DNA of 32,987 bases from a bacterium (GTDB lineage Bacteria > Actinomycetota > Coriobacteriia > Coriobacteriales > CADBOM01), in the NCBI GenBank assembly GCA_024698685.1, contig JAILQZ010000036.1:1-32987 (forward strand). The letters are read 5' to 3'. Under the pieces are notes generated by a model. The model made no database searches. It was not told the DNA's origin and saw only the letters and a list, made by a program, of their open reading frames with translations. Positions 9,675-29,425 of the stretch are shown here, one piece after another. The position numbers were made by a program, and so were the translations under genes. How positions within the stretch are numbered: the stretch's first letter is position 1; every line of letters starts with the position of its first letter.

Positions 9675-10256
9675 CTAGGCTTTTTCCAAGCTTGATTTCG
9701 TAAGGTGAACGTATTTGAATTCGTCTTCCATGTAGATTTCGAACACGCCGGTAACCGTCACCTCGCACCCGTCTTCGGGGTAGTCTTGCGGCCACTTACG
9801 GCTGCCGTCGCCCCATACGAATTCGAGACCTTGGGAGCAACACGCCGTTGCATCTTGGATTACAACGAAGAAGTAGTCGTTTCCCGTTCTTTCATCGCGG
9901 CTGTGATAGTAGACGCCCGACATCCTGATGACTTTCCCCTCGTATGATGAGGGGTTGACCATCATGTCGTTTACCGTTGCATACACCATGTCAGACCCCA
10001 TCTTCGTGAGGTCGTAGTCCACTTTCGAGTAGGTTGGCTCGGCATCGGCAGGGAACAGGCCGCTTCGAGGCGTTCCGTTTGAGGCCCCTTGCCCATCTGA
10101 TTCGCCGCTCTGCTTCTGCTCTTGCAAGATGTCGGAGACGCCCTGTTGCTGTGACGGCGCGGAACGGGAGGCGTCATCAGAGCATCCGCCCACGATCAGC
10201 ATGCCCATCAAGGCTGTGGCAAAGGTTATCGAGACGATGCTTCTCGAGAGATTCAT
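9675..10256 (-). CDS. Lipoprotein with OB-like domain in zinc-uptake operon
   Basis: The second of two adjacent ATGs (10256) has the better distance to AAGGAG; the first (10259) is also possible. The 193-residue protein has a lipoprotein signal ending LIVGGC with Cys25 as the lipidated residue, then a Gln/Ser-rich linker to about residue 75 and a compact domain. That domain reads NPSSYEGKVIRMSGVYY, DYFFVVIQDATACCSQGLEFVW and CEVTVTGVFEIYMED, an OB-like strand order. The Cys-Cys-x-x-Gly segment recalls the C-terminal domain of the DUF1980/TIGR03943 family (weak resemblance). Its start overlaps the znuB stop, so it is the last gene of the metal ABC operon. It may handle metal or thiol chemistry at the outer membrane face (inference). 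Confidence 0.8.
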   Translation of the reverse strand: MNLSRSIVSITFATALMGMLIVGGCSDDASRSAPSQQQGVSDILQEQKQSGESDGQGASNGTPRSGLFPADAEPTYSKVDYDLTKMGSDMVYATVNDMMVNPSSYEGKVIRMSGVYYHSRDERTGNDYFFVVIQDATACCSQGLEFVWGDGSRKWPQDYPEDGCEVTVTGVFEIYMEDEFKYVHLTKSSLEKA

Positions 10257-11101
10257 CATATTCTCCTTTTCAAGAATCCGATCGCGCAAAAAGATGCATA
10301 GGCGAGTGCGTCGAGTACCACGATCGTCGATCCAACTGGTGTGCCGAGCATGATCGATGCGAGCATGCCGACAAGCGCGCACGACACCCCTATCGCAGCT
10401 GCAATAACGGTGACTGCCTTGAATGTGCGGCAAACCCGCATGGCGGAAAGCGCTGGGAACACGACGAGGGCGGAGAGCAGAAGCGCTCCGACCAGGTTCA
10501 TGCCGACGACGATGACGAGGGCGACCATGATTGCAATGACGAGGTTATATCGCCCTACGGGCAATCCTGCAGCTCTTGCGAAGGCCTCGTCGAAGGTGAC
10601 GGCGAACACCCGGTTGTAGATCAGCGCGAAGCCTGCCACTACCACGACCGACATGACCGCGCATGCAGCGACGTCGAAAGGCGTGAGGGTGAGAATCGAG
10701 GTAGATCCGAAAAGGACCGTGCACACATCTCCCGAGACGTTCGAGCGCGTGCCGAACACGTTCATAATGAGGTAGCCTATTGCGAGCGCTGTCACCGACA
10801 TCATGGCAATCGCCGCATCGCCCTTTACCTTGGCCGACTGGCCTCGCCTTAGCAACAGTACGGCTGCAAGCACCGTTACCGGCGCGATGATCATCATATC
10901 CCGCGTGACGCCGACGACGGCTGCCACTGCATAGGCGCCGAATGCAACGTGACTTAGGCCATCGCCGATATAGGACAGCCGTTTCATCACGAGCGTCGTT
11001 CCCAGAAGAGATGAGCACAGGGCTACCAACACGCCTACGACAAGCGCGTTCACGACGAATGGATAGGACAGGTAGGTTATAAGCTGCTCAAACGCTCCCA
11101 T
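10256..11101 (-). CDS. znuB: Zinc/manganese ABC transporter permease
   Basis: This 281-residue integral membrane protein belongs to the ABC-3 (ZnuB/MntB) permease family. It shows about eight hydrophobic segments and the conserved GDGLSHVAFGAYAVA region near residues 47-60 and the LLSALVVFPALSAM segment near 205-218. It forms the channel through which the metal released by ZnuA enters the cytosol. Its ATG overlaps the TGA of znuC in TGATG, which implies coupled translation, and the lipoprotein gene overlaps its own stop. Whether it carries Zn or Mn cannot be decided from the permease alone; the His/Asp/Glu loop of ZnuA and the Fur/Zur-type neighbour favour Zn. Confidence 0.93.
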   Translation of the reverse strand: MGAFEQLITYLSYPFVVNALVVGVLVALCSSLLGTTLVMKRLSYIGDGLSHVAFGAYAVAAVVGVTRDMMIIAPVTVLAAVLLLRRGQSAKVKGDAAIAMMSVTALAIGYLIMNVFGTRSNVSGDVCTVLFGSTSILTLTPFDVAACAVMSVVVVAGFALIYNRVFAVTFDEAFARAAGLPVGRYNLVIAIMVALVIVVGMNLVGALLLSALVVFPALSAMRVCRTFKAVTVIAAAIGVSCALVGMLASIMLGTPVGSTIVVLDALAYASFCAIGFLKRRI

Positions 11102-11775
11102 CAGGCATCGCCTCCACGAGGGGATTCGACTGCAAGAAATCTCGCAGTTCCTCCGCTCATCTCGAGCACGTGCGTGGCGTGTGGCATCGCAGCAGCAACA
11201 TCGTGCGTCACCGCTATCACGCCTACGCCCTGAGAACGAAGGTCGTCGATGGTGCGGTAGAGCGACTCTGATGCCTCCGGGTCTAGTCCAGTCGTCGGCT
11301 CATCGAGTACGAGCAGACTTGGTGCTCCAGCGAGCGCACGCGCCAGAAGCACGCGCTGCTGCTGGCCACCTGAGAGGGAGCCGAATGGCTTGTCCTTCAG
11401 CGCGATGGCCCCTACCTTGCGCAGAGCCTCCTCGGCTGCCTCGCGATCCACCTTGGAATAGAAGGGCCGGTTCCCCAATCGGGCCGCACGGCCTGAAAGG
11501 GTAACCTCCCATGCGGAAGCGGGAAAATCTCGTTGAGATTCGGCCTTCTGGGGCAGATAGCCTATCTTGCCCGCCGAGGCTCCATCGCAGAAGCTCATAT
11601 CGCCAGAGAGCGGGGGCAGTAGCCCTAGCAGCGTCTTCACCAGCGTGGATTTGCCCGCGCCGTTCTCACCCACGATGAACACGGCATCGCCATAGTCCAC
11701 CGAGAATGAAATGCCTTCTGCAACAGGCGTGTTGCCGTAGCCCACAGAGAGACATTCGCATGAGAGGTATGCCAT
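11101..11775 (-). CDS. znuC: Zinc ABC transporter ATP-binding protein
   Basis: The 224-residue ATPase has Walker A GENGAGKST near 36-44, Q-loop region GYLPQKAE, signature LSGGQQQR near 134-141, Walker B LLVLDEPTTGLD and the switch His in VTHDVA. Length and the short C-terminus fit metal-chelate ATPases of the ZnuC/MntB class. It powers transport through ZnuB. It lies 9 bases downstream of znuA, and its stop overlaps the znuB start. It is assigned to zinc by the adjacent genes rather than by its own sequence. Confidence 0.94.
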   Translation of the reverse strand: MAYLSCECLSVGYGNTPVAEGISFSVDYGDAVFIVGENGAGKSTLVKTLLGLLPPLSGDMSFCDGASAGKIGYLPQKAESQRDFPASAWEVTLSGRAARLGNRPFYSKVDREAAEEALRKVGAIALKDKPFGSLSGGQQQRVLLARALAGAPSLLVLDEPTTGLDPEASESLYRTIDDLRSQGVGVIAVTHDVAAAMPHATHVLEMSGGTARFLAVESPRGGDA

Positions 11776-11784
11776 AGCGTCTCC

Positions 11785-12804
11785 TTACTTCAACGCCTTG
11801 GACAGAATGGACAGGTTGTTCTCCATCGTTTCGAGGTAGGTCTTGCCCTCTGCAATATCGGCATCGGTTGCGGATTGCAATGAATCCATGGTGAGGATCT
11901 CCTGATCATGGCCCTGCGTGGTATTCACGACAGTTTGCGCTATCTTCTGATCGGAGCTCTCTATTACGAGAACGCATCCCAGATTCAGCTCGTCGACCTT
12001 CTGCGCAAGGAAGGCTACGGTCTCGAAACTCGCTTCTGACTCGGCCGAGCAGCCGACGAATGCGGCGTAGTACTTCAAGCCGTAGTCGTCTACCAGGTAA
12101 CGGAACGGGAATCGATCGGCGAATACAATGGTATCGTGCGCACCCGCCGCCACGACATTCGCATAGCGGCTGTCCAGCTCAGCCAGATCTGCCTTGTAAA
12201 CCTCTGCATTCTCCTTGTAAACGCCAGCATGCTCAGGATCGATATCGGAAATCTCCGCAGTTATCGCATCCACCAGCACTTGTGCATTCCTCAGCGAGAG
12301 CCACACATGCTCGTCGTACTCCGGGCCCTCTTCGCCTTCGTCCTCGTGATCGGCTTCGCCATGCTCGTGCTCTTCGGCTTCCATGCCCTCGACGATCTCC
12401 TCCTCAACTGCAGCGTCGCCAACCGCATCGAGCATGCTCACAACGTGCAGGTCGGGGTTTGCCGCCTCCTCGACGGCATCTTCCGCCCATTCATCGGACT
12501 CGCCTCCGACATAGATGAACAGATCGGCATCGGAGATCTTCGCGACGTCTTCGACTGTCGGCTGATAGCTATGCAAATCCACGCCGCTGCCCATCAGATA
12601 GGTTATTTCGAAGGCATCGCTCCGGTCTCCGACGATCTCGCGCGTCCAGTCGTATGCTGGAAACGTTGCGCACACGACATTGATCTTCTCTTGCGATGAA
12701 TCGTTTGAATCGGATTGCGAGCTTTGGCTCGTACCCGAGCATCCGACAATCAATCCCATGCACAGCGCCGCCGTCGCAACGACGGCGATAATCATTCGTT
12801 TCAT
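11785..12804 (-). CDS. znuA: Zinc ABC transporter substrate-binding lipoprotein
   Basis: This 339-residue lipoprotein has a signal peptide ending IVGC, a Ser/Asp/Gln linker, and the two-lobed ZnuA/TroA fold. Metal-ligand regions are visible: DLHSYQP (His in the first lobe), YDEHVWLS (second His), HDTIVFADRFPFRYLVDDYGL (third His region) and VLVIESSDQK. Between the first and second His lies a flexible loop rich in His, Asp and Glu (EEHEHGEADHEDEGEEG), a hallmark of zinc-specific ZnuA proteins. It captures Zn2+ outside the membrane and delivers it to ZnuB. It is the first gene of the znuACB-lipoprotein operon, 93 bases after the small membrane protein gene, and its upstream leader holds a perfect hairpin. 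Confidence 0.95.
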   Translation of the reverse strand: MKRMIIAVVATAALCMGLIVGCSGTSQSSQSDSNDSSQEKINVVCATFPAYDWTREIVGDRSDAFEITYLMGSGVDLHSYQPTVEDVAKISDADLFIYVGGESDEWAEDAVEEAANPDLHVVSMLDAVGDAAVEEEIVEGMEAEEHEHGEADHEDEGEEGPEYDEHVWLSLRNAQVLVDAITAEISDIDPEHAGVYKENAEVYKADLAELDSRYANVVAAGAHDTIVFADRFPFRYLVDDYGLKYYAAFVGCSAESEASFETVAFLAQKVDELNLGCVLVIESSDQKIAQTVVNTTQGHDQEILTMDSLQSATDADIAEGKTYLETMENNLSILSKALK

Positions 12805-12822
12805 AGTGGATACACCCCTTTT

Positions 12823-12841
12823 TGCGGTCCACAGGACCGCA
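12823..12841 (-). promoter_or_regulatory. Hairpin in the znuA leader
   Basis: TGCGGTCC at 12823-12830 and GGACCGCA at 12834-12841 form a perfect 8-bp stem with a 3-base loop, located 19 bases upstream of the znuA ATG. On the minus strand it is followed by AAAAAGGGGTGT, not a T-run, so it is not a terminator. It could stabilise or process the mRNA between the upstream membrane protein gene and znuA, or tune translation. Confidence 0.5.
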
Positions 12842-12897
12842 TCGCCTTGTAACTTTCAGCTGGATTTCCAGGCAAAGCATGTCCGTTGGGGTGTCGG

Positions 12898-13251
12898 TTA
12901 GATGCGGAGCATGACTCCCAAAGATAGTGGGGTTGCAGCCTTGAACGCAGCAGCGAAGCCAAATGGAAGCATCTTGCAGGTAGCGTCTGCCAACAGCTTC
13001 CTCGATTGCGCTGGTCGCGCATGTGCCAGCGCGAGGATGATGGGCTGGACGACGACGATGCCGACGCACAGAATCAGCAGTCCGCTGGCCAGCGTTGCGA
13101 CAAGGCACAAAACGCAGCCATCTCCAGTGCATTCGTGGCCATGGAGCGCCTCGATGACGATGGCGCTTGCAGCTGCCAGGATTGCCATGGCAGCGCTAAG
13201 CCTACGAGGCCACGATGAGCTCTTGCGATGTGGGAGAAGGGCAAGGTTCAT
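12898..13251 (-). CDS. Small membrane protein with HxCxGxxCxxC motif
   Basis: I start this 117-residue protein at the ATG at 13251, preceded by GGGAGGAAT; it overlaps the Fur stop. Hydrophobic segments lie at about 18-34, 50-76 and 97-115. Between the first two is a short loop with His37, His39, Cys41, Cys46 and Cys49 (HGHECTGDGCVLC), a likely soft-metal-binding or disulfide motif on one membrane face. The order Fur/Zur, this gene, znuA places it in a metal-homeostasis block, so zinc sensing or trafficking is plausible (inference). The family is not known to me. Confidence 0.78.
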   Translation of the reverse strand: MNLALLPHRKSSSWPRRLSAAMAILAAASAIVIEALHGHECTGDGCVLCLVATLASGLLILCVGIVVVQPIILALAHARPAQSRKLLADATCKMLPFGFAAAFKAATPLSLGVMLRI

Positions 13252-13772
13252 CGCGATTCCTCCCGACATTTCTCGCATATCCCGTAGAGCACAGTGCGCG
13301 TTGCGTCGATTTTAAATCCATGGTGATCGAGCATGTGTGCCGAGAAATCAGCCAACATGCTGCAGTCAAGCGGTAGCGCATGTCCGCAATTCAGGCACAC
13401 GAGCTGCGTAGAGGCATCGCCGACAGCCATTCGGTAGCGGGCTTCGCCGCTCGGCGTCATCGCCTTAAGGGCAGCTCCGCTTGCGAACATCGCCTCGAGA
13501 GTGCGGTACACGGTCGAGCGACCGGCATTCTCGGGCCCCGCGGATACCCCAGCCCACACCTCGTCGACGCTCAGGTATCGATCGGCCTTTTCTGCCAGGT
13601 ATGAAGCAATGGCATCGCGCTGCTTCGTTCTATATGTGCCCCTCCGCGCCGTGATTGCTCCTGCCGAATATTGAAATTGAATGTCGATTTCATATTTTAT
13701 GCCAAGTGCCGTCCGCTTGCAAGCTGGAGATGCAATTGACGTTCCATGATATCGCGATCTCAGCGACCGCAA
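13248..13772 (-). CDS. Fur-family metalloregulator, probably Zur
   Basis: The protein has a Fur-type winged helix (RTKQRDAIASYLAEKADRYLSVDEVW, STVYRTLEAM) and a dimerisation domain with two CxxC zinc sites (CLNCGH, CEKC) and the sensing region LDHHGFKIDATRTVLYGIC. The zinc transport genes alongside make a zinc uptake regulator more likely than an iron one. The start is unsettled: the only usual in-frame start before the DNA-binding domain is TTG at 13772, giving 174 residues and an odd N-terminal extension; the conserved part begins near 13645. It lies 4 bases after the GNAT stop, and its stop overlaps the small membrane protein start. Confidence 0.85.
   Translation of the reverse strand: MRSLRSRYHGTSIASPACKRTALGIKYEIDIQFQYSAGAITARRGTYRTKQRDAIASYLAEKADRYLSVDEVWAGVSAGPENAGRSTVYRTLEAMFASGAALKAMTPSGEARYRMAVGDASTQLVCLNCGHALPLDCSMLADFSAHMLDHHGFKIDATRTVLYGICEKCREESR
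13672..13722 (-). promoter_or_regulatory. Internal promoter with dyad, probable Zur/Fur operator
   Basis: On the minus strand TTGCAA (13722-13717), a 17-base spacer and TAAAAT (13699-13694) make a good promoter. TGAAAT at 13672-13677 and ATTTCA at 13687-13692 form a dyad with a 9-base spacer over the predicted transcript start. An AT-rich dyad at this place fits a Fur-family site. The promoter lies inside the long open frame of the regulator, which bears on where that gene really starts. Confidence 0.5.
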
Positions 13773-13776
13773 ATCT

Positions 13777-14289
13777 CTAGCGCTCGCCTAGTGTCAGATA
13801 GTCTTTCATCTCGATGAATCCACGCGCGGCATAGATGCCCCGCGCCGCATCGGTGGTTTCGAGATAGACCTTCCCCGCTCCCGCCTTGTGGGCATAGGCC
13901 ACGAGCCAATCGACTAGTACGCCGGCCACGCCTTGCTTGCGTGCGGAGGGCACCGTGTAAATGTTCATCAGATAGGCGCATAGGCCAGTGGGGTTGTCAG
14001 GGGAGGGCATCTCATCGTAGAGGCAAAGCGCGCCGCAGCCAACGGGTTCGCCGTCGCGCTCGGCATCGAGAGCTAGCACGGCCACATGAGATCCGTCGGG
14101 CAGATGACGCTCGTAGTAGCTGCGGTTTTGATCCATGAGCTCGTCGATGTCGGCATCGTCAGCCAGCTCGAACACCTCTCGCAGAACGCGCTCGCGCCAC
14201 TCCATCAGAAGATCGAGGTCCTCGAGGCTGAGGCGCTTCACGGTTACATTCGGCTTTTCTGCGCTACGCATGTCGCCCATCTCGCTCAT
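13777..14289 (-). CDS. GNAT-family N-acetyltransferase
   Basis: The 170-residue protein shows a GNAT fold: an N-terminal strand and helix with LLMEWRERVLREVF, the acceptor-side strand VAVLALDAERDGEPVGCGALCLYDEMP, the acetyl-CoA loop VPSARKQGVAGVLVDWLVAYAHKAGAGKVYLET (Q/R-x-x-G-x-A type), and ARGIYAARGF at the end. Family members acetylate amino groups of small molecules or proteins. Its ATG overlaps the stop of the adenylation-enzyme gene in ATGA, so the two proteins are probably made together. The acceptor is unknown; the pairing suggests an amino acid or its derivative (inference). Confidence 0.9.
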   Translation of the reverse strand: MSEMGDMRSAEKPNVTVKRLSLEDLDLLMEWRERVLREVFELADDADIDELMDQNRSYYERHLPDGSHVAVLALDAERDGEPVGCGALCLYDEMPSPDNPTGLCAYLMNIYTVPSARKQGVAGVLVDWLVAYAHKAGAGKVYLETTDAARGIYAARGFIEMKDYLTLGER

Positions 14290-15800
14290 CGCTCCGTTTC
14301 TTTCTTCGCCTTGCCTGCGTTGCCCGACCTCTCGACCTTGGGCAGCGCTTCGACGTCAACCTTGCCATTGGCGGTCAGGGGCATCCGCTCAAGGCGCACG
14401 AAGAGCTCGGGCACCATGAACGCGGGAAGCTCTGCGGCCATCTGGACGCGGATCTGTCCCTCGGACACATCGCCGTCGGCAACGTAATACGCCGTCAGAT
14501 ACGAGGCCATCCCGCGCTCATCGGGATATGCGCGCACCACGCCGGTCTTCACGCCAGCGCATTCGCAAAGCACGCTTTGAACCCCGTCGGGCTCCACGCG
14601 CTGCCCCCACACCATCACCTGGTTGTCCTTGCGATGCACGAACGCGATGTCGCCGTTCGGCAGCTCGTAACCCAGGTCGCCAGAGCGGTAGAGCCTCGTG
14701 CCATCAGGGCGCTCAGCAAACGAGGTGGCGTGCATGTTGGCATGGCCGATGTAGCCGCGGCCCACGCCATCGCCGCCAATGCAGATCTCACCCACAGTGC
14801 CTGTCGGCACTGGCTGCAGGCTTCCATCGAGGATGCGAACCGTGGCGCCGAGCACCGCATGCCCTATGGGATACGTGCCGTCTGCAAGCTCGCTACCCGG
14901 CGTGCACCGGAAATAGTTCGAGCAGACGGTGGTCTCGGAAGGTCCGTAGGTGTTGTAGACCGCAACCTTGTCCACGAGATTCGCCACATAGCTTGTGCGC
15001 AGCACGTCGCCTCCGCTGATGAGCAGCCGCAGGCTCGCGGGAATCGTTGCGAGGTCGTTCATCTCCATCAGCAGATAGGGGAAGCCCGACACCATCGTGA
15101 CGCCAAGGCGCTCGATGAACGCCATGAGCTCCTCAACGCTGTTGCGGGTCTCGGGGGTGGGAATGGCCAGCGCAGCGCCGTTGAGCAGCGTCGCGAACAC
15201 CTCCTCGACAAAGATGTCGAACGTGCATACCGAATGCTGCAGCATCACGTCGCCAGGCCCGTTTTGAAACTCGTGGTGGAACGCGCGCGCATAATGGCAC
15301 ACGTTGCGCTGTTCGATGGCGATGCCCTTGGGCCTTCCCGTGCTGCCCGATGTGTAGAGAACGTAGGCGAGATCGCTGGGCTGCACCAGCACCGGTGCGA
15401 CGGCATCGGTGGCCGCCTTCGCCTCGAAACCGTGCTCGATCGCAACGATCGGCACCGAGCCGATGCCGTCGAAGCGGTGCGCGTACTCCGCATGGGCGAG
15501 GATGCAATCGGCTTGGCAGTCTTGCATCATGAAGCGGATGCGGGCATCGGGGAAGCTCGGCTCGACGGGCACATAGGCCGCACCGGCGCGCAGCACGCCG
15601 AGGATGGCCGCGATCATCTCGACGCCGTGGTCCATGATGATGCCCACGCGCTGCACTTTGGCGGGCAGCAGCGACTGGATTGCCGCCGCCATGCGCTCGA
15701 GCTGTGAGAACGTGAGCGCGCGGTCTTCGCCTTGCACCGCAAGCGCATCGGGACGCGCCGCGACTTGCGCCGCGAACATCTCGAATACGGTCTGGTACAT
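14286..15800 (-). CDS. Stand-alone amino-acid adenylation enzyme
   Basis: This 504-residue protein is an NRPS-type adenylation domain without a carrier or condensation domain. Motifs seen: A3 YTSGSTGRPKG at 149-159, A4 FDIFVEEVF with Asp195 at the position that holds the alpha-amino group, A5 NTYGPSETT at 283-291, A7 YRSGDLGYE, and A10 PLTANGKVD with the catalytic Lys near the C-terminus. The A8 hinge is degenerate (KDNQVMVWGQRVEPDGVQ). Asp195 argues for a true amino-acid substrate. It should form an aminoacyl-AMP from ATP, but its acceptor is not encoded nearby. It is not part of a dlt operon: no DltB, DltC or DltD is present. The GNAT gene overlaps its stop. Confidence 0.9.
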   Translation of the reverse strand: MYQTVFEMFAAQVAARPDALAVQGEDRALTFSQLERMAAAIQSLLPAKVQRVGIIMDHGVEMIAAILGVLRAGAAYVPVEPSFPDARIRFMMQDCQADCILAHAEYAHRFDGIGSVPIVAIEHGFEAKAATDAVAPVLVQPSDLAYVLYTSGSTGRPKGIAIEQRNVCHYARAFHHEFQNGPGDVMLQHSVCTFDIFVEEVFATLLNGAALAIPTPETRNSVEELMAFIERLGVTMVSGFPYLLMEMNDLATIPASLRLLISGGDVLRTSYVANLVDKVAVYNTYGPSETTVCSNYFRCTPGSELADGTYPIGHAVLGATVRILDGSLQPVPTGTVGEICIGGDGVGRGYIGHANMHATSFAERPDGTRLYRSGDLGYELPNGDIAFVHRKDNQVMVWGQRVEPDGVQSVLCECAGVKTGVVRAYPDERGMASYLTAYYVADGDVSEGQIRVQMAAELPAFMVPELFVRLERMPLTANGKVDVEALPKVERSGNAGKAKKETER

Positions 15801-24378: not shown

Positions 24379-25167
24379 CTACTTCTTCCCGACCAGCAGC
24401 GCGGAGCCGTAGAGCTCCATCCAGATAGCTTCCCGCTTCGTCATGAATGTGCCATCGGTGGTGTCGATGAACTCGACATGCTCGTAGCCCATGCTCCTCA
24501 AGCGTTCGGCAAAGGCCTGCATGTCGCCGAACCTCGACTTCGAGAAAATGTCGTGGAGGGCGAAGGTGCCACCTTTCTTCAGTACGCGCAGCGTCTCCAG
24601 TAGGATCTCCTGGCGATTCCTCGACGGGATGTTGTGGTAGACGTAGTTGCTGACCACGGCGTCGAAGCTCTCGTCGGCGAAGTCCAGTTCCACCGCATTG
24701 CCGCGCTCGAAGGAGACGTTGCGCACGCCTTCGGCCTCGGCGTTGCTCTCGCAAAGCTCTTTGCTGAAGGAGGCGTACTCCTTGCCCCAGCGGTCGATGC
24801 CGACGAATATCGCGCTCGGGTTTCGCTTGGCGCAGGCGATGGCGAGCGCGCCGCTGCCGCAACCTACGTCGAGCCCCGTGCCGCCTTCGGGCAGCTTCAC
24901 GTGCTCCGCGATGCCCTCGATGATCTGCCTGGACATCTGTCGCTTCCCGTTGTAGGAGAACGCGCGGTAAAGCAGCCACATCCAGATGGAGACGCCAAGT
25001 CCGATGATCGTGCCGATGAGGAACACGACGAACAGCACGGTCTTCAGCGTGCCGGATACGATCCCAGTCAGGCCGAAGATGATGAACAGCGCGAGAAGCG
25101 CAATGGTAGCGAAGACTGCGGTCCACACCATGCCCTTGGGCATCCAGTTCTTGTAGTCGGGTTTCAT
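24379..25167 (-). CDS. Membrane-anchored SAM-dependent methyltransferase
   Basis: The 262-residue protein has two N-terminal hydrophobic segments at about 14-34 and 41-66, then a class I methyltransferase domain. Motif I is LDVGCGSGALAIACAKRNP near 98-116, motif II/III includes IFVGIDRWG, and NVSFERGNAVELDF gives the adenine-side Asp. SNYVYHNIP and LKKGGTFALHDIF complete the fold. AAGGAAGG precedes the ATG. The substrate is likely membrane-associated, such as a lipid or quinone (inference). It follows the MptD-like gene in the same direction, separated by a 79-base gap with a short hairpin, and may be cotranscribed with the ABC genes. Confidence 0.88.
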   Translation of the reverse strand: MKPDYKNWMPKGMVWTAVFATIALLALFIIFGLTGIVSGTLKTVLFVVFLIGTIIGLGVSIWMWLLYRAFSYNGKRQMSRQIIEGIAEHVKLPEGGTGLDVGCGSGALAIACAKRNPSAIFVGIDRWGKEYASFSKELCESNAEAEGVRNVSFERGNAVELDFADESFDAVVSNYVYHNIPSRNRQEILLETLRVLKKGGTFALHDIFSKSRFGDMQAFAERLRSMGYEHVEFIDTTDGTFMTKREAIWMELYGSALLVGKK

Positions 25168-25195
25168 TTCCTTCCTTCTTGCTTCTTTTGCTCCA

Positions 25196-25211
25196 GCGCC
25201 TTTAGAGGCGC
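25196..25211 (-). other. Short hairpin between the MptD-like and methyltransferase genes
   Basis: GCGCCT at 25196-25201 and AGGCGC at 25206-25211 form a perfect 6-bp stem with a TTAG loop. There is no T-run after it on the minus strand, so it is not a clear terminator. It may attenuate read-through between the two genes. Confidence 0.4.
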
Positions 25212-25246
25212 GCTAACGCAAGGCTTTTCCTCCCAAGGGCCGCCTG

Positions 25247-25816
25247 TCACTTCAGCTTGGCGGCCTGCTTCTTCAGAACCTTCTCGGCCAGCCTCATGCC
25301 CAGGATCGCAATCGGAATCACCAGAATCAGCGCGACGACCAGCATTGGGATGTTGGAGATCACCGGCGCCATGGTGTCCGCATAGCCCGCGGGCATCTCC
25401 GCCACTGCAGCGGCCAGGGAGCCCGCGGTGTCCGTCCACCAGTGCGCGGAGTAGGTATAGAACGAGAACGCGAAGGGGACGAAACTCAGCCGCACGCCCT
25501 TGAGCGTGTCGTAGCCGCAGATTCCGCGGATGATCTCCGCAAGCACGGCAAGACCGATCATTCCGATGATGAACGGCAGGTTCCCTTCGCCTGCGATCAG
25601 CCCCAGTATCAGCACGAAACCGTTCAGGACGATCGCGGCGCCGAAGCAGCGCATATTGGCAGCAGTCAGCAGGTATACGAAGGCGAAGAGCAGCGGCACC
25701 ACAGTGCCGGCATATGCGTAGCATGCCGGATGAATCATCCCGGTTGCCGAGGCAAGGGGGTAGAGTGCGAGGTAGACAATTGCGGCGATGATTACGGAAA
25801 TGACAGACTTCTTCAC
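25247..25816 (-). CDS. MptD-type ECF transporter S component
   Basis: This 189-residue hydrophobic protein resembles the Trep_Strep/MptD family of putative ECF substrate-binding (S) components. It has about six membrane segments, the Gly-rich LASATGMIHPACYAYAGTVVPLL region and a FVPFAFSFYTYSAHWW segment typical of that family. It begins with GTG (25816) after GAAAGGA. No ECF T or A subunits are in the window; instead two half-size ABC exporters lie just upstream in the same direction, a context seen for this family in other bacteria. It probably captures a small ligand, with transport powered elsewhere or by the shared ABC proteins (inference). Confidence 0.85.
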   Translation of the reverse strand: MKKSVISVIIAAIVYLALYPLASATGMIHPACYAYAGTVVPLLFAFVYLLTAANMRCFGAAIVLNGFVLILGLIAGEGNLPFIIGMIGLAVLAEIIRGICGYDTLKGVRLSFVPFAFSFYTYSAHWWTDTAGSLAAAVAEMPAGYADTMAPVISNIPMLVVALILVIPIAILGMRLAEKVLKKQAAKLK

Positions 25817-25855
25817 GTTTCAGCGATCCTTTCGAATTTCGACGTTCGGCTGCGG

Positions 25856-27598
25856 CTAGACACTCCAGCCTGCGCTGGCGGATTGCAGCGCGTGCATGCG
25901 GGTGAACACGCCGTCCTCATTCGCGAGCAGCTCGGAAGGCGCACCTTCTTCGATGACCTTGCCCTCCGAGAGCACGACGATCTTGTCGGCGTTCTCGACG
26001 GTACGCATGCGATGAGCGATGATGAGCACCGTTTTGCCCGCTAGCAGACGCGAAAGCGCGCTCTGGACTTTCGTCTCGTTCTCGACATCCAAGCTGGCCG
26101 TAGCCTCGTCAAGCAGCACGATGGGAGCATCCTTGAGGAGCGCGCGTGCAATAGAGATGCGTTGGCGCTCGCCGCCAGAGAGCCTCGCGCCATTCTCGCC
26201 GATTGGCGTGTTGTAGCCAGCCGGCAGCTTCTCCACGAACTCGTCGCAGTTGGCTGCGGCAGCCGCTGCGCGCACCTCTTCATCGGTGGCGCCGTGCTTG
26301 CCGAGGCGGATATTCTCCATGACCGTGTCGTCGAACAGCGTGACGTTTTGGAAGACCATCGAATAGTCTCCGAGCAGCGCCTCCGGGTCGACCGAAGTGA
26401 TGTCTACGCCACCCACCTCGATGCTGCCCTGCGAGACGTCCCACAGGCGAGCAGCCAGGCGAGCGCACGTGCTCTTGCCAGATCCTGAGGGCCCGACCAG
26501 CGCGGTGACCTCGCCCTCCTTGGCTACGAAGCTCACGCCGCGCAGCACCTGTTCGTCGTCGTAGGCGAACCCGACATCCTTGAAGACGATGTCGTGGCCA
26601 GTAGGCTTGAATTCCTCAGCTCCCTCGGCTGCGGGGGTGTCGTAGATCTCCATCAGGCGCTTCGCCGAGACCTCGGACATGAACACCTCGGCGATGAGTG
26701 CGAGCGACTGATCGAATGGAGCGTAGATTCGCGTGATTACCAGCAGGAACATGAAGAGCAGCATGAAGTCGATGCGCCCGGAGAGGATGAGGCTGGCGCC
26801 CACGAGGATCGTCGTGGCCACACCGAGGCGCATGATCACGCTCGCCCCATTCACGAACAGGCCCGCAACGAGCTCGGCGCCGATCTTTGCGCGCTCGAGT
26901 GCGTCGATCTTGTCGTTAAGCTCGCCGAGGAAGCGCTGCTCCTGGTTGGTTGCATGGATTTCGCGGATGTTCTCGAGCGCCTCCTGCATGCCATCGGCTA
27001 CCGCCAAGGAGGTCGCCTTCGCCTTCTCAGCGCTCCGTGCGGAAAGGCGCCTGCTGCCGAAGAGCAGCGCGAATGCCACGGGCACGCCCCAAAGGCACGC
27101 GATCGCGAGGCGCCAGTCCATCGCAAGCAGCATGACGGCGATGATGGCGGTCGATATGTAGCCGCCGTAGAGGTATCCGAGCACGTGCGACCACACATGT
27201 TCCATGCGGTTGACGTCGCCCATGACCGTCTCGGTCAGATCGGCCAGGTCGCGCTTGCCGAAGAAGCCCAGCGGCAGCTTGCGCAGACGCTCGGCGAGGC
27301 CAAGCCGCATGGTCTTGACCTCTTCGTAGACCAGGCCGTAGGTTGCGTAGTACTGCTGGTAGTGGGTGATGATCGACAGCACGATGAAGACCACGGTTGC
27401 GCCGACGAAAATCATCCAGTTTGGCAGGACCTCGCCATCGACGAGCGTCTTCATGAGGCCCATCATCAGGAAGTACAGGATGCCCATGCCGACCATCATG
27501 AGCAGGTTGACGATGACGGTCCAGAGGGTGCCCTTCTTGGTTGCGGCAATGCCCTGGTCGGAAAGCGCGTACTTGCGCTGGAACTTCGGTCCGAACAT
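25856..27598 (-). CDS. Half-size ABC exporter, second of a pair
   Basis: The 580-residue protein has a six-helix type-I exporter membrane domain (about 20-310) and an ATPase with Walker A GPSGSGKST, signature LSGGERQR, Walker B IVLLDEATASLD and the H-loop IAHRM. It starts (ATG 27598) immediately after the TAG of the preceding ABC gene, with AAAGGAGG in that gene's tail, so translation is coupled. The two half-transporters most likely form a heterodimer. Similar pairs next to MptD-like genes have been linked to drug, siderophore or lipid handling in other species, but nothing in the sequence fixes the substrate. The MptD-like gene follows 39 bases later. Confidence 0.92.
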   Translation of the reverse strand: MFGPKFQRKYALSDQGIAATKKGTLWTVIVNLLMMVGMGILYFLMMGLMKTLVDGEVLPNWMIFVGATVVFIVLSIITHYQQYYATYGLVYEEVKTMRLGLAERLRKLPLGFFGKRDLADLTETVMGDVNRMEHVWSHVLGYLYGGYISTAIIAVMLLAMDWRLAIACLWGVPVAFALLFGSRRLSARSAEKAKATSLAVADGMQEALENIREIHATNQEQRFLGELNDKIDALERAKIGAELVAGLFVNGASVIMRLGVATTILVGASLILSGRIDFMLLFMFLLVITRIYAPFDQSLALIAEVFMSEVSAKRLMEIYDTPAAEGAEEFKPTGHDIVFKDVGFAYDDEQVLRGVSFVAKEGEVTALVGPSGSGKSTCARLAARLWDVSQGSIEVGGVDITSVDPEALLGDYSMVFQNVTLFDDTVMENIRLGKHGATDEEVRAAAAAANCDEFVEKLPAGYNTPIGENGARLSGGERQRISIARALLKDAPIVLLDEATASLDVENETKVQSALSRLLAGKTVLIIAHRMRTVENADKIVVLSEGKVIEEGAPSELLANEDGVFTRMHALQSASAGWSV

Positions 27599-29425
27599 CT
27601 AGGCCTCCTTTCCATCGGTCGTGGTTGGCTCGAGTGTGCCGACGCCGATTCTCCATTGGACCGCTTGGTTGTAGTCAGCCCACATGCGCGCGTACAGTCC
27701 GTTTGCGGCGATGAGCTCGCCATGGGTGCCTTGCTCGACCATCTGTCCGGAGTCGAGCACGACGATCTTGTCGGCTCCCACGACCGTGGAGAGGCGATGG
27801 GCGATCATGATTACCGTGCGGTCGCGCATGAGCGTGGCGAAGGCCTTCTGGATGAGCGCCTCGTTCTCGGGGTCGGCGAAGGCCGTCGCCTCGTCGAGCA
27901 CGATGATCGGCGCGTCCTTGAGGATGGCGCGGGCGAGTGCCACGCGTTGCTGCTCGCCTCCAGAGAGGTAGGTGCCCTCGGTGCCGATGATCGTGTCGAT
28001 GCCATCGGGGAGCTTGGCGATGATGTCGTCGCACTGCGCGGCCGAGAGCGCTGCGAGCACTTCTTCGCGCGTGGCTTCGGGGCACGCAGCGCGGACGTTC
28101 TCGAGGATCGATGTCTTGAACAGGCGGTTGTTCTGGAATACGAACGCGATCTGGTCCATGAGCACATGAGGGTCAATCTGGCGTACATCTACGCCGCCAA
28201 CCTCCACGGCACCGGAATCCACATCCCAGAAGCGGGGGATGAGGCTTGCAGCAGTTGTCTTACCGCCGCCCGAAGGCCCGACGAGAGCAACCGTTTGGCC
28301 GGGTTCGACCACGAGCGAGACGTTCTTCAGCGCCGGCTCAGCGGCACCCTCGTACGTGAACGTGACGTCTTTGAACTCGACGCGGTTGCCTTGCGGCGCG
28401 ACGGGCTCGCTGGCGATCTCGAGCACAGGGGCGTCCATGACCTGGTTGATGCGGCCGAGCGCCGAGGTGGCGAGCATCGTGCCACCTGCAGCGAACATGA
28501 CCTTTGCGAGCGCCGTCGAGATGATCGCAGAGAACACGGCGTAGAACGCGAAGTCGGTGATAAATCCGGCGAAGTTGCCCGAGGCGAGCGCGCTAGGCGC
28601 CAGGATGAGCGCGACGGGCACCAGGAACACGAACGCGCCCTCGGTGAACGTGAGGTTTATGGTCTGCGGCATGCGGCAGATCTCGCCCTGGTAGTGCCCG
28701 GCCTTCGCGCTGTAATCGTCGATGGCCTCCTTGAAGGCCTTGAACGAGTAGACGGTCTGCTGGAACACCTTCACCACTGGAATGCCGCGCACGTACTCGA
28801 CGCCTGCCTTGCACATGGGGTCCTGAGCCGCCTGGTATTCGGCGATGAGGCCTGAGTTCTTGCCGCCCATCATCGAGAACAGCATGAGGATCGAGATGAC
28901 GGCTGCCAGCAGGCACGCGAGGCCCATTCGCCAGTCGAATGCGAACATCAGCGCGATGACGCCGATGAGCATCGCCGCCGTGCCCGAGATGTCGGCGAGG
29001 TTGTGTGCAAGCAGCGTCTCGGTTTCGCCCGCGCCCCCGTCGAGGCGGTTGCGGATCAAGCCGCTAGCGTTGTTGTCGAAATATCCGAGAGGTGCGCTCA
29101 TCATGCGCGCCATGCCCTGCTTGCGGATGTTGGTGGCCGTGCGGAACGCGGAGAGGTGCGTGCACATGAGCGCGGCGAAGTACACGACGATTCCGCCCAC
29201 GGCGAACCAGAATGCAGCCCAGCCATAGGTGGAGATGTTCGTTGCCAGCGCCCAGTTGGGGGCGACGGCTATGAGATCGCGTGCGACGAGCCATACGCAG
29301 ATGTAGGGGACCATGCCCATGAGCATGGCGATCACGGAGAGCACGCAGCCCACGAAGGTCAGCGACTTGAAGCTGCCCGCGTAGTTGAGGAGGACGGAGA
29401 CCTCTCCCTGCTTCTTCTCTGCCAT
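27599..29425 (-). CDS. Half-size ABC exporter, first of a pair
   Basis: The 608-residue protein has a type-I exporter membrane domain with long hydrophobic helices (for example LTFVGCVLSVIAMLMGMVP), then an ATPase with Walker A GPSGGGKTT, signature LSGGEQQR, Walker B IIVLDEATAFADPEN and H-loop IAHRLSTV. In the Walker A the usual Ser is Gly (SGGGKT), a minor change. It is the first gene of the ABC-ABC-MptD unit, with AAAGGA ahead of the ATG and a promoter in the region shared with the divergent methyltransferase. It presumably pairs with the adjacent half-transporter; the substrate is unknown. Confidence 0.93.
   Translation of the reverse strand: MAEKKQGEVSVLLNYAGSFKSLTFVGCVLSVIAMLMGMVPYICVWLVARDLIAVAPNWALATNISTYGWAAFWFAVGGIVVYFAALMCTHLSAFRTATNIRKQGMARMMSAPLGYFDNNASGLIRNRLDGGAGETETLLAHNLADISGTAAMLIGVIALMFAFDWRMGLACLLAAVISILMLFSMMGGKNSGLIAEYQAAQDPMCKAGVEYVRGIPVVKVFQQTVYSFKAFKEAIDDYSAKAGHYQGEICRMPQTINLTFTEGAFVFLVPVALILAPSALASGNFAGFITDFAFYAVFSAIISTALAKVMFAAGGTMLATSALGRINQVMDAPVLEIASEPVAPQGNRVEFKDVTFTYEGAAEPALKNVSLVVEPGQTVALVGPSGGGKTTAASLIPRFWDVDSGAVEVGGVDVRQIDPHVLMDQIAFVFQNNRLFKTSILENVRAACPEATREEVLAALSAAQCDDIIAKLPDGIDTIIGTEGTYLSGGEQQRVALARAILKDAPIIVLDEATAFADPENEALIQKAFATLMRDRTVIMIAHRLSTVVGADKIVVLDSGQMVEQGTHGELIAANGLYARMWADYNQAVQWRIGVGTLEPTTTDGKEA

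Follow-up and report, generated by a model that had tools for sequence, protein, structure and literature searches.

Results

An adenylation gene and a GNAT gene at one junction

The window, by which we mean the whole stretch of 32,987 nucleotides that was analysed, carries on its reverse strand a gene for a stand-alone NRPS-type adenylation (A) enzyme and, directly behind it, a gene for a GNAT acyltransferase (Table 1). Both open reading frames lie where the first-pass annotation had placed them and the GNAT start does overlap the stop of the A gene, as it had claimed. At the junction, GGAGCGATGAGCG, the TGA of the one and the ATG of the other share an ATGA that is preceded by a GGAG stretch. 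To judge from this sequence, A and GNAT would be translationally coupled. Directly upstream of A lies a gene for a CoA-disulfide-reductase-like flavoprotein and directly downstream of GNAT a Fur-like gene, whose start (in the longest open reading frame) is 4 nt past the GNAT stop. The Fur-family regulator and, after it, the genes of a metal ABC transporter (a ZnuA-like binding protein, an ATPase and a permease) occupy positions 10256-13772 of the reverse strand; a methyltransferase gene and a pair of ABC exporter half-proteins are found on the same strand at 24379-29425.

Table 1. Positions of the paired genes and of their main sequence features in the window.
Feature	Position	Strand	Basis
Stand-alone NRPS-type adenylation (A) enzyme, 504 aa	14286-15800	-	ATG start, TGA stop; ORF, TIGR01733, AlphaFold model
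GNAT acyltransferase, 170 aa	13777-14289	-	PF00583 53.3 bits; structure model
ATGA, 4-nt overlap of A stop (TGA) and GNAT start (ATG)	14286-14289	-	Sequence reading
Pocket core Asp195-Glu199 (DIFVE)	15204-15218	-	Computed Stachelhaus positions
Met396, at the site of the A8 lysine (Lys434 of GrsA)	14613-14615	-	Family versus control alignment
Lys480, catalytic A10 lysine	14361-14363	-	K in 87/90 family rows, gap in 3
GNAT family signature EMPSPDNPTGLCAYLMN	13963-14013	-	E93, P95-N99, G102, C104-N109 invariant (78-row alignment)
CoA pyrophosphate loop R-K-Q-G-V-A (R/Q-x-x-G-x-G/A)	13924-13941	-	R or Q117 in 93/93, G120 in 91/93, G/A122 in 93/93

The adenylation enzyme and its altered A8 motif

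The A open reading frame scores 348.7 bits with TIGR01733, above the curated threshold of 317.4. Both A subdomains are present (PF00501, 242.7 bits; PF13193, 28 bits), Pfam finds no further domain in the chain, and the C-terminus consists of A10 and about 18 more residues. The best structural matches of the AlphaFold model (pLDDT 87.4) are all NRPS A domains, among them 4d4h (Z 51.5) and 1amu (Z 50.7). Identity with DltA was rejected, the TIGR01734 score being 210.8 bits against a cut-off of 559.85.

In a 90-row family alignment, Asp195 and motifs A3, A5, A6, A7, A9 and A10 are intact in the window enzyme and common to the family; the first-pass annotation was right that Asp195 and the core motifs are kept, A8 apart. 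It had called A8 degenerate, which proved true in one respect. The site of the A8 lysine is Met in 89 of the 90 rows and a gap in the other (89/89 readable), whereas all 30 control A domains have Lys there. These controls were the domains that passed the coverage filter among 31 loci supplied, the window locus (L123) and one family locus (L138) having been excluded beforehand. The rest of the motif is better preserved than 'degenerate' would imply: the hinge Asp392 is retained, as are R390, Q394, G399, R401 and E403. The window enzyme also deviates at G406 and Q408, where the family has Glu in 85/90 and 84/90 rows (Gly in 3, Gln in 2). The Lys-to-Met change at 396 is the A8 change that counts, and it is a trait of the family.

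The A8 lysine (K434 of GrsA) is described as supporting the thiolation half-reaction (PMC11253843), and Met at this site would speak against standard carrier loading. Judged by the acyl-CoA ligases of the window's own genome, which carry I, K and K there (three of four were readable), the position is not diagnostic for CoA thiolation, so that the change to Met would be compatible with the use of CoA.

A pocket of the lysine/ornithine type

The Stachelhaus residues of the window enzyme (D195, I196, E199, S238, I261, G263, T284, V292, C293 and K480) give the code DIESIGTVCK. It is identical in 79 of 90 family rows, and 3 more differ solely by a gap at the last place; Glu199 is found in all 89 readable rows. 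Glu at place 3 (239) and Ser at place 4 (278) are each found in a single one of the 30 A domains taken as controls from the class. Thr at place 7 is present in 14 of these 30 and is therefore not telling.

Among published codes, that of BacB-M1-Lys is DAESIGSV (PMC3207962). The code of PosA, for ornithine, is given as DMEHNGTVSK and those of related homopolymer synthetases as DLEDIGTV(T/V/I)K and DIESIGTVTK, with Asp at place 1 and Glu at place 3 conserved (PMC10522769). For Pls_A, the lysine contacts listed are D213, E217, S256, T301 and K495 (PMC11253843). The window pocket has the residues with which poly-lysine and poly-ornithine synthetases hold their lysine or ornithine, and the code suggests that the substrate is a cationic diamino acid similar to these two. 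Any choice among Lys, Orn and Dab by code is weak and the three are indistinguishable on this comparison, because place 2 is Ile here and Ala, Met or Phe in characterised enzymes. The code strings themselves occurred in no paper of the literature searched.

The GNAT partner

The GNAT model (pLDDT 91.3) is closest to 3mgd, an acetyl-CoA-bound GNAT (Z 20.2, 2.1 Å over 150 residues). Lower matches, at Z 14.9-16.2, are the polyamine acetyltransferase DpA, the thialysine acetyltransferase SSAT2, PaiA and ornithine-bound NATA1, and many aminoglycoside acetyltransferases are also among them; a GNAT fold shared by a model and known enzymes does not establish function. In NCBIfam, one family GNAT is weakly similar to PaiA, and the AcuA-type model gave no match for the GNAT family. 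The 78-row alignment has 31 invariant columns, many of them within EMPSPDN..G.CAYLMNIY. Such deep conservation of a loop would fit one specific, small acceptor.

A conserved module of gut bacteria

Relatives were gathered by a GNAT scan of 84,980 species genomes, which gave 192 matching stretches with 179 relatives among them and from which the best 80 were used, and by a search with the A protein in the window's own order; a contig scan with the A protein confirmed 0 of 25 pattern matches. The alignments for structure, drawn from the 80 GNAT loci, held 77 GNATs and 55 A proteins once near-identical copies and partial or odd-length sequences had been dropped.

An A homologue stands beside the GNAT in 75 of the best 80 GNAT loci, on the same strand in all 75 (HMMER, six-frame open reading frames); 74 had one above 300 bits in the first pass. 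In three of the five loci without A (L060, L094 and L095), the GNAT sits no more than 200 bases from the beginning of the locus, and in L041 A is present only as a fragment in another frame. At 75 loci with A out of 80, the A-GNAT pairing exceeds chance. The sources of these 80 are mostly Lachnospiraceae, Oscillospiraceae, other Clostridia, Prevotella and other Bacteroidales, with Coriobacteriia as well. A Coriobacteriaceae member of the GNAT family (L082, 5995-6459, forward strand; 48% identical) has neither an A homologue nor the esterase-like hydrolase described below across roughly 12 kb (6 kb on each side), possibly a free-standing use of the same GNAT.

Of the 297 genomes in the order to which the window belongs, 18 gave a match to the A protein at 1e-70. 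Sixteen, including the genome of the window, were counted as family, and two (L023 and L024) were left out, their A match lying inside NRPS frames of 3000-4000 aa. Within a flank of only about 1.5 kb, the GNAT was seen in 12 of the 15 relatives in the order and the esterase-like hydrolase in 9. Of the 73 family loci measured, 69 have the stop of A and the start of GNAT overlapping or at most 30 nt apart; the exact offsets are approximate, since GNAT starts were chosen by alignment. Pairwise identities of A and GNAT are correlated (r=0.80, 87 members), with 0 of 300 permutations as high, a result that shared genome ancestry could also yield.

When the regions of seven relatives were compared with the window, A and GNAT were matched in all seven, and the neighbouring Fur-like, ZnuA/ZnuB and CoA-disulfide reductase genes in none of the seven. 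The sole region with other matches (L156) has a 58-residue ABC ATPase hit and matches to three other window genes. A + GNAT is a conserved gut-bacterial module and not a local oddity.

Several further ideas about the module were rejected. A link to zinc or iron uptake fails on the 0/7 count for Fur/Znu genes beside A-GNAT, the short ATPase hit apart. A fusions in L053 and L089 are only apparent (the N-terminal extra of L053 has no Pfam match and reads as an out-of-frame GC-rich extension), and an A-GNAT fusion in L019 is doubtful, its open reading frame crossing a block of undetermined residues. Spread by plasmids was rejected on identities of only 34-36% in the best 15 of 102 plasmid records, and a role in anti-phage defence on 0 PADLOC families for the window A, the window GNAT and the esterase and GNAT of L073 (one sequence each).

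Further genes near the module

A third gene, encoding an alpha/beta hydrolase of about 230 aa (PF00756), is present in 63 of the best 80 GNAT loci; in 59 of the 80 it is on the same strand and no more than 300 bp away, 39 times downstream of GNAT and 20 times upstream of A. In the PDB, the hydrolase profile matches BES, IroE and other siderophore esterases (E 1.9e-8 and weaker). The profile found no match in the window's own genome (6 of 8 genomes searched were positive), and in one relative (G237) the hydrolase and the A gene are on different contigs. The core is thus A + GNAT, with the hydrolase frequent and dispensable.

HxlR- and AraC-type regulators are often neighbours of the module. In several Lachnospiraceae loci (L027, L031, L034, L037, L038 and L041), at least two Sir2-family genes and a microbial-type PARG gene lie upstream of A on the same strand. 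Genes for radical SAM enzymes (16 loci) and for DUF5131 proteins (11 loci) are found repeatedly near modules of the Prevotella and Clostridia type (L026-L105).

Carriers and condensation domains

The first-pass annotation had stated that the A enzyme lacks a carrier or condensation partner, and we found neither gene within the A-GNAT module. No carrier was detected in the window with an ACP-seeded profile, which covers mainly discrete carriers. PF00668 has 0 matches in the window's own genome (94.4% complete, so that absence is not proof); the same search was positive in 4 of 14 control genomes. A genome search for free carriers, which the annotation had proposed, returned two, both in other operons, and no cognate carrier. 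One is a FAS-type ACP, the single PF00550 match, on contig C35 in the order plsX-acpP-rnc (plsX and rnc named by eye); the genome has one ACPS-type transferase. The other, an atypical carrier on contig C77, was missed by PF00550 and found with the ACP-seeded profile, which is weak where a carrier is embedded in an NRPS chain (detected in 1 of 6 control loci, E=0.058).

The C77 carrier belongs to a variant of a Dlt-like operon (locus L146, 3938-9912, reverse strand) that is separate from the A-GNAT pair and also holds an MBOAT protein, a 447-aa gene with no Pfam match, a stand-alone A domain and a PLP enzyme resembling ornithine/DAP decarboxylase. The A domain has the code DVKIGSLCNK and an intact A8 lysine; a similar code, DVKxxSLCNK, occurs in several Coriobacteriia A domains among the A8 controls.

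Across the family, carriers were present in 20 of 20 module genomes tested, 1 to 7 in each. Among 95 module loci, a single one (L055) gave a carrier-like open reading frame with the ACP-seeded profile, some 2 kb away from A. Coordinates could be compared in five relatives, and there the PF00550 match nearest to A is 54 kb (G231), 187 kb (G202), about 214 kb (G210) or about 337 kb (G223) away, or on a contig other than that of the A gene (G237).

Discussion

A possible route to a cationic amide

The first-pass reading of a carrier-less A enzyme coupled to a GNAT survives in the pairing of the two genes and in the lack of a cognate carrier or condensation gene; it had missed the spread of the module, its frequent third gene, the pocket and the fact that the A8 change is a family trait. 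With these added, we lean tentatively, at a confidence somewhat under even, towards the view that the two genes form the core of a conserved two-enzyme module that does without a carrier and makes amides from a cationic diamino acid. An amide product is plausible.

The A enzyme would bind a diamino acid of the lysine or ornithine kind, with Asp195 contacting the alpha-amine and Glu199, Ser238 and Thr284 the side-chain amine, and would make the acyl adenylate with ATP and Lys480; from the pocket, we hold this step to be probable. Because the A8 lysine is gone and the module has no carrier, it also seems likely, if slightly less so, that the activated group passes on without carrier loading, either still as the adenylate or in the form of a CoA thioester. 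The co-translated GNAT, whose CoA loop is kept, may then join a small amine to it in place of a condensation domain, a step that we propose only tentatively. Since the two-gene form contains neither a carrier nor a further conserved enzyme, the GNAT would be the simplest user of the activated group, and its PDB neighbours, which include the diamine and polyamine acetyltransferases DpA, SSAT2 and PaiA as well as ornithine-bound NATA1, lend carrier-free amidation some support. Where the hydrolase is present, it could release or degrade the product.

It is tempting to go further and to see here a third class of nonribosomal amide synthesis, one that needs no carrier and spans the main gut phyla, in which an A enzyme without the thiolation lysine makes an adenylate or CoA ester of the lysine/ornithine type, a GNAT acts as the condensation enzyme to give cationic amides, and the hydrolase releases or destroys them. 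Taken together, these claims are rather doubtful.

Alternative roles for the GNAT and for the A enzyme

The main rival to amide formation by the GNAT is that it merely acetylates, as most GNATs do; after it come acetylation of the A enzyme itself and an unlinked carrier. As an acetylating enzyme, the GNAT could transfer the acetyl group of acetyl-CoA to one amine, either on the diamino acid or on the completed product, and the adenylate could meet another nucleophile or cyclise with its own side-chain amine to a lactam, giving an N-acetyl amide or an N-acetyl lactam. Ornithyl and lysyl adenylates can cyclise. The outer positions of the CoA loop are intact in 93/93 family members, 3mgd binds acetyl-CoA, other structural relatives acetylate polyamines and diamino acids, and the weak similarity of a family GNAT to PaiA goes in the same direction. 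That the best structural match binds acetyl-CoA also tells against condensation, and the GNAT may cap instead of condense. However, the two-gene form has no other conserved user of the adenylate, and capping would need a spontaneous or a non-conserved step. On balance we consider it unlikely.

The GNAT could instead be a regulator that, as in the AcuA/AcsA pair, acetylates the A10 lysine (Lys480) and switches the A enzyme off. GNAT control of AMP-forming synthetases is established (PMC11255334), the window enzyme has the P-x4-GK stretch (P474 to K480), a Sir2 gene is present in its own genome, and Sir2-family genes lie upstream of A in some Lachnospiraceae loci. To our knowledge, though, all A10 motifs share the P-x4-GK form, which is thus not diagnostic. 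The GNAT family has no AcuA-type NCBIfam match, the own genome has no AcuC-type deacetylase (PF00850), and the deepest GNAT conservation, in the loop EMPSPDN..CAYLMN, would better suit a specific small acceptor; we regard such regulation as improbable. Much the same low probability attaches to loading of a carrier in trans, in the manner of type II NRPS or Dlt systems, with the ACP or the C77 carrier charged by A and offloaded by the GNAT or an unlinked enzyme. The own genome does have two carriers, of which the C77 one could in principle act in trans, and every module genome tested has at least one. Yet the A8 lysine is lost family-wide, neither own carrier shares an operon with the pair (the C77 operon even has a separate A domain), the nearest carrier in the five relatives is at least 54 kb away or on another contig, and just 1/95 module loci has a carrier-like frame.

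Comparison with known systems

No description of an A-GNAT module was found in the literature searched, which covered few subscription papers, so that an earlier account may exist in print. Such loci are labelled merely 'NRPS-like' by standard cluster finders. What is new here is known enzyme classes in a carrier-free pairing. If the proposal is true, Blautia, Faecalibacterium, Prevotella and Coriobacteriia would share a compact pathway to a metabolite not yet assigned, and a GNAT would replace a condensation domain in bacteria. The module may make a common gut metabolite, a small amide of a lysine- or ornithine-like amino acid, and the invariant A8 change together with the pocket could offer a cheap handle on substrate and carrier independence.

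DltA is likewise a stand-alone A domain of about 500 aa. The window enzyme has a different code, has no DltB/C/D beside it and falls below the TIGR01734 cut-off. Pls/PosA-type synthetases, which make cationic homo-polyamino acids, have their carrier in the same chain. They share with the window enzyme the Asp/Glu/Thr and Ser pocket for Lys or Orn, and the PosA structures 8g97/8g98 are among the structural matches of our A model (Z about 47), whereas the window protein is a 504-aa A domain only (PF00501 + PF13193). Their membrane condensing part is also described as part of that chain (PMC10522769). The OaaA/OaaACP/OaaC clusters for gut fatty-acid amides resemble the module in using discrete NRPS-like enzymes, with a stand-alone A domain and an amide formed with a small amine (PMC13142362). 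They have their own ACP and C domain and activate a fatty acid; the window module has neither ACP nor C domain, and its predicted substrate is a diamino acid.

Two systems come closer in how they would work. Ebony, the Drosophila beta-alanyl amine synthetase, is a single polypeptide with a carrier. It combines an A domain with a GNAT-fold domain that stands in for the condensation domain, whereas the window has two proteins, no carrier in the A chain, a lost A8 lysine and a different pocket. Condensation by a GNAT-type domain thus has a precedent in Ebony (cited in PMC8072286 and PMC10531068). The lindolin enzymes LinA/LinB of Kickxellales likewise comprise a ligase and a separate acyltransferase, with no carrier and no C domain. 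They are the precedent for a carrier-free ligase and transferase, joining indole-acetic acid and anthranilate via CoA from fungal genes that are reported as unclustered (PMC10478498); in the window, by contrast, the A domain is of the amino-acid type and the genes are coupled. By analogy, our best reading is that the module would work like Ebony or LinA/LinB while being a member of neither.
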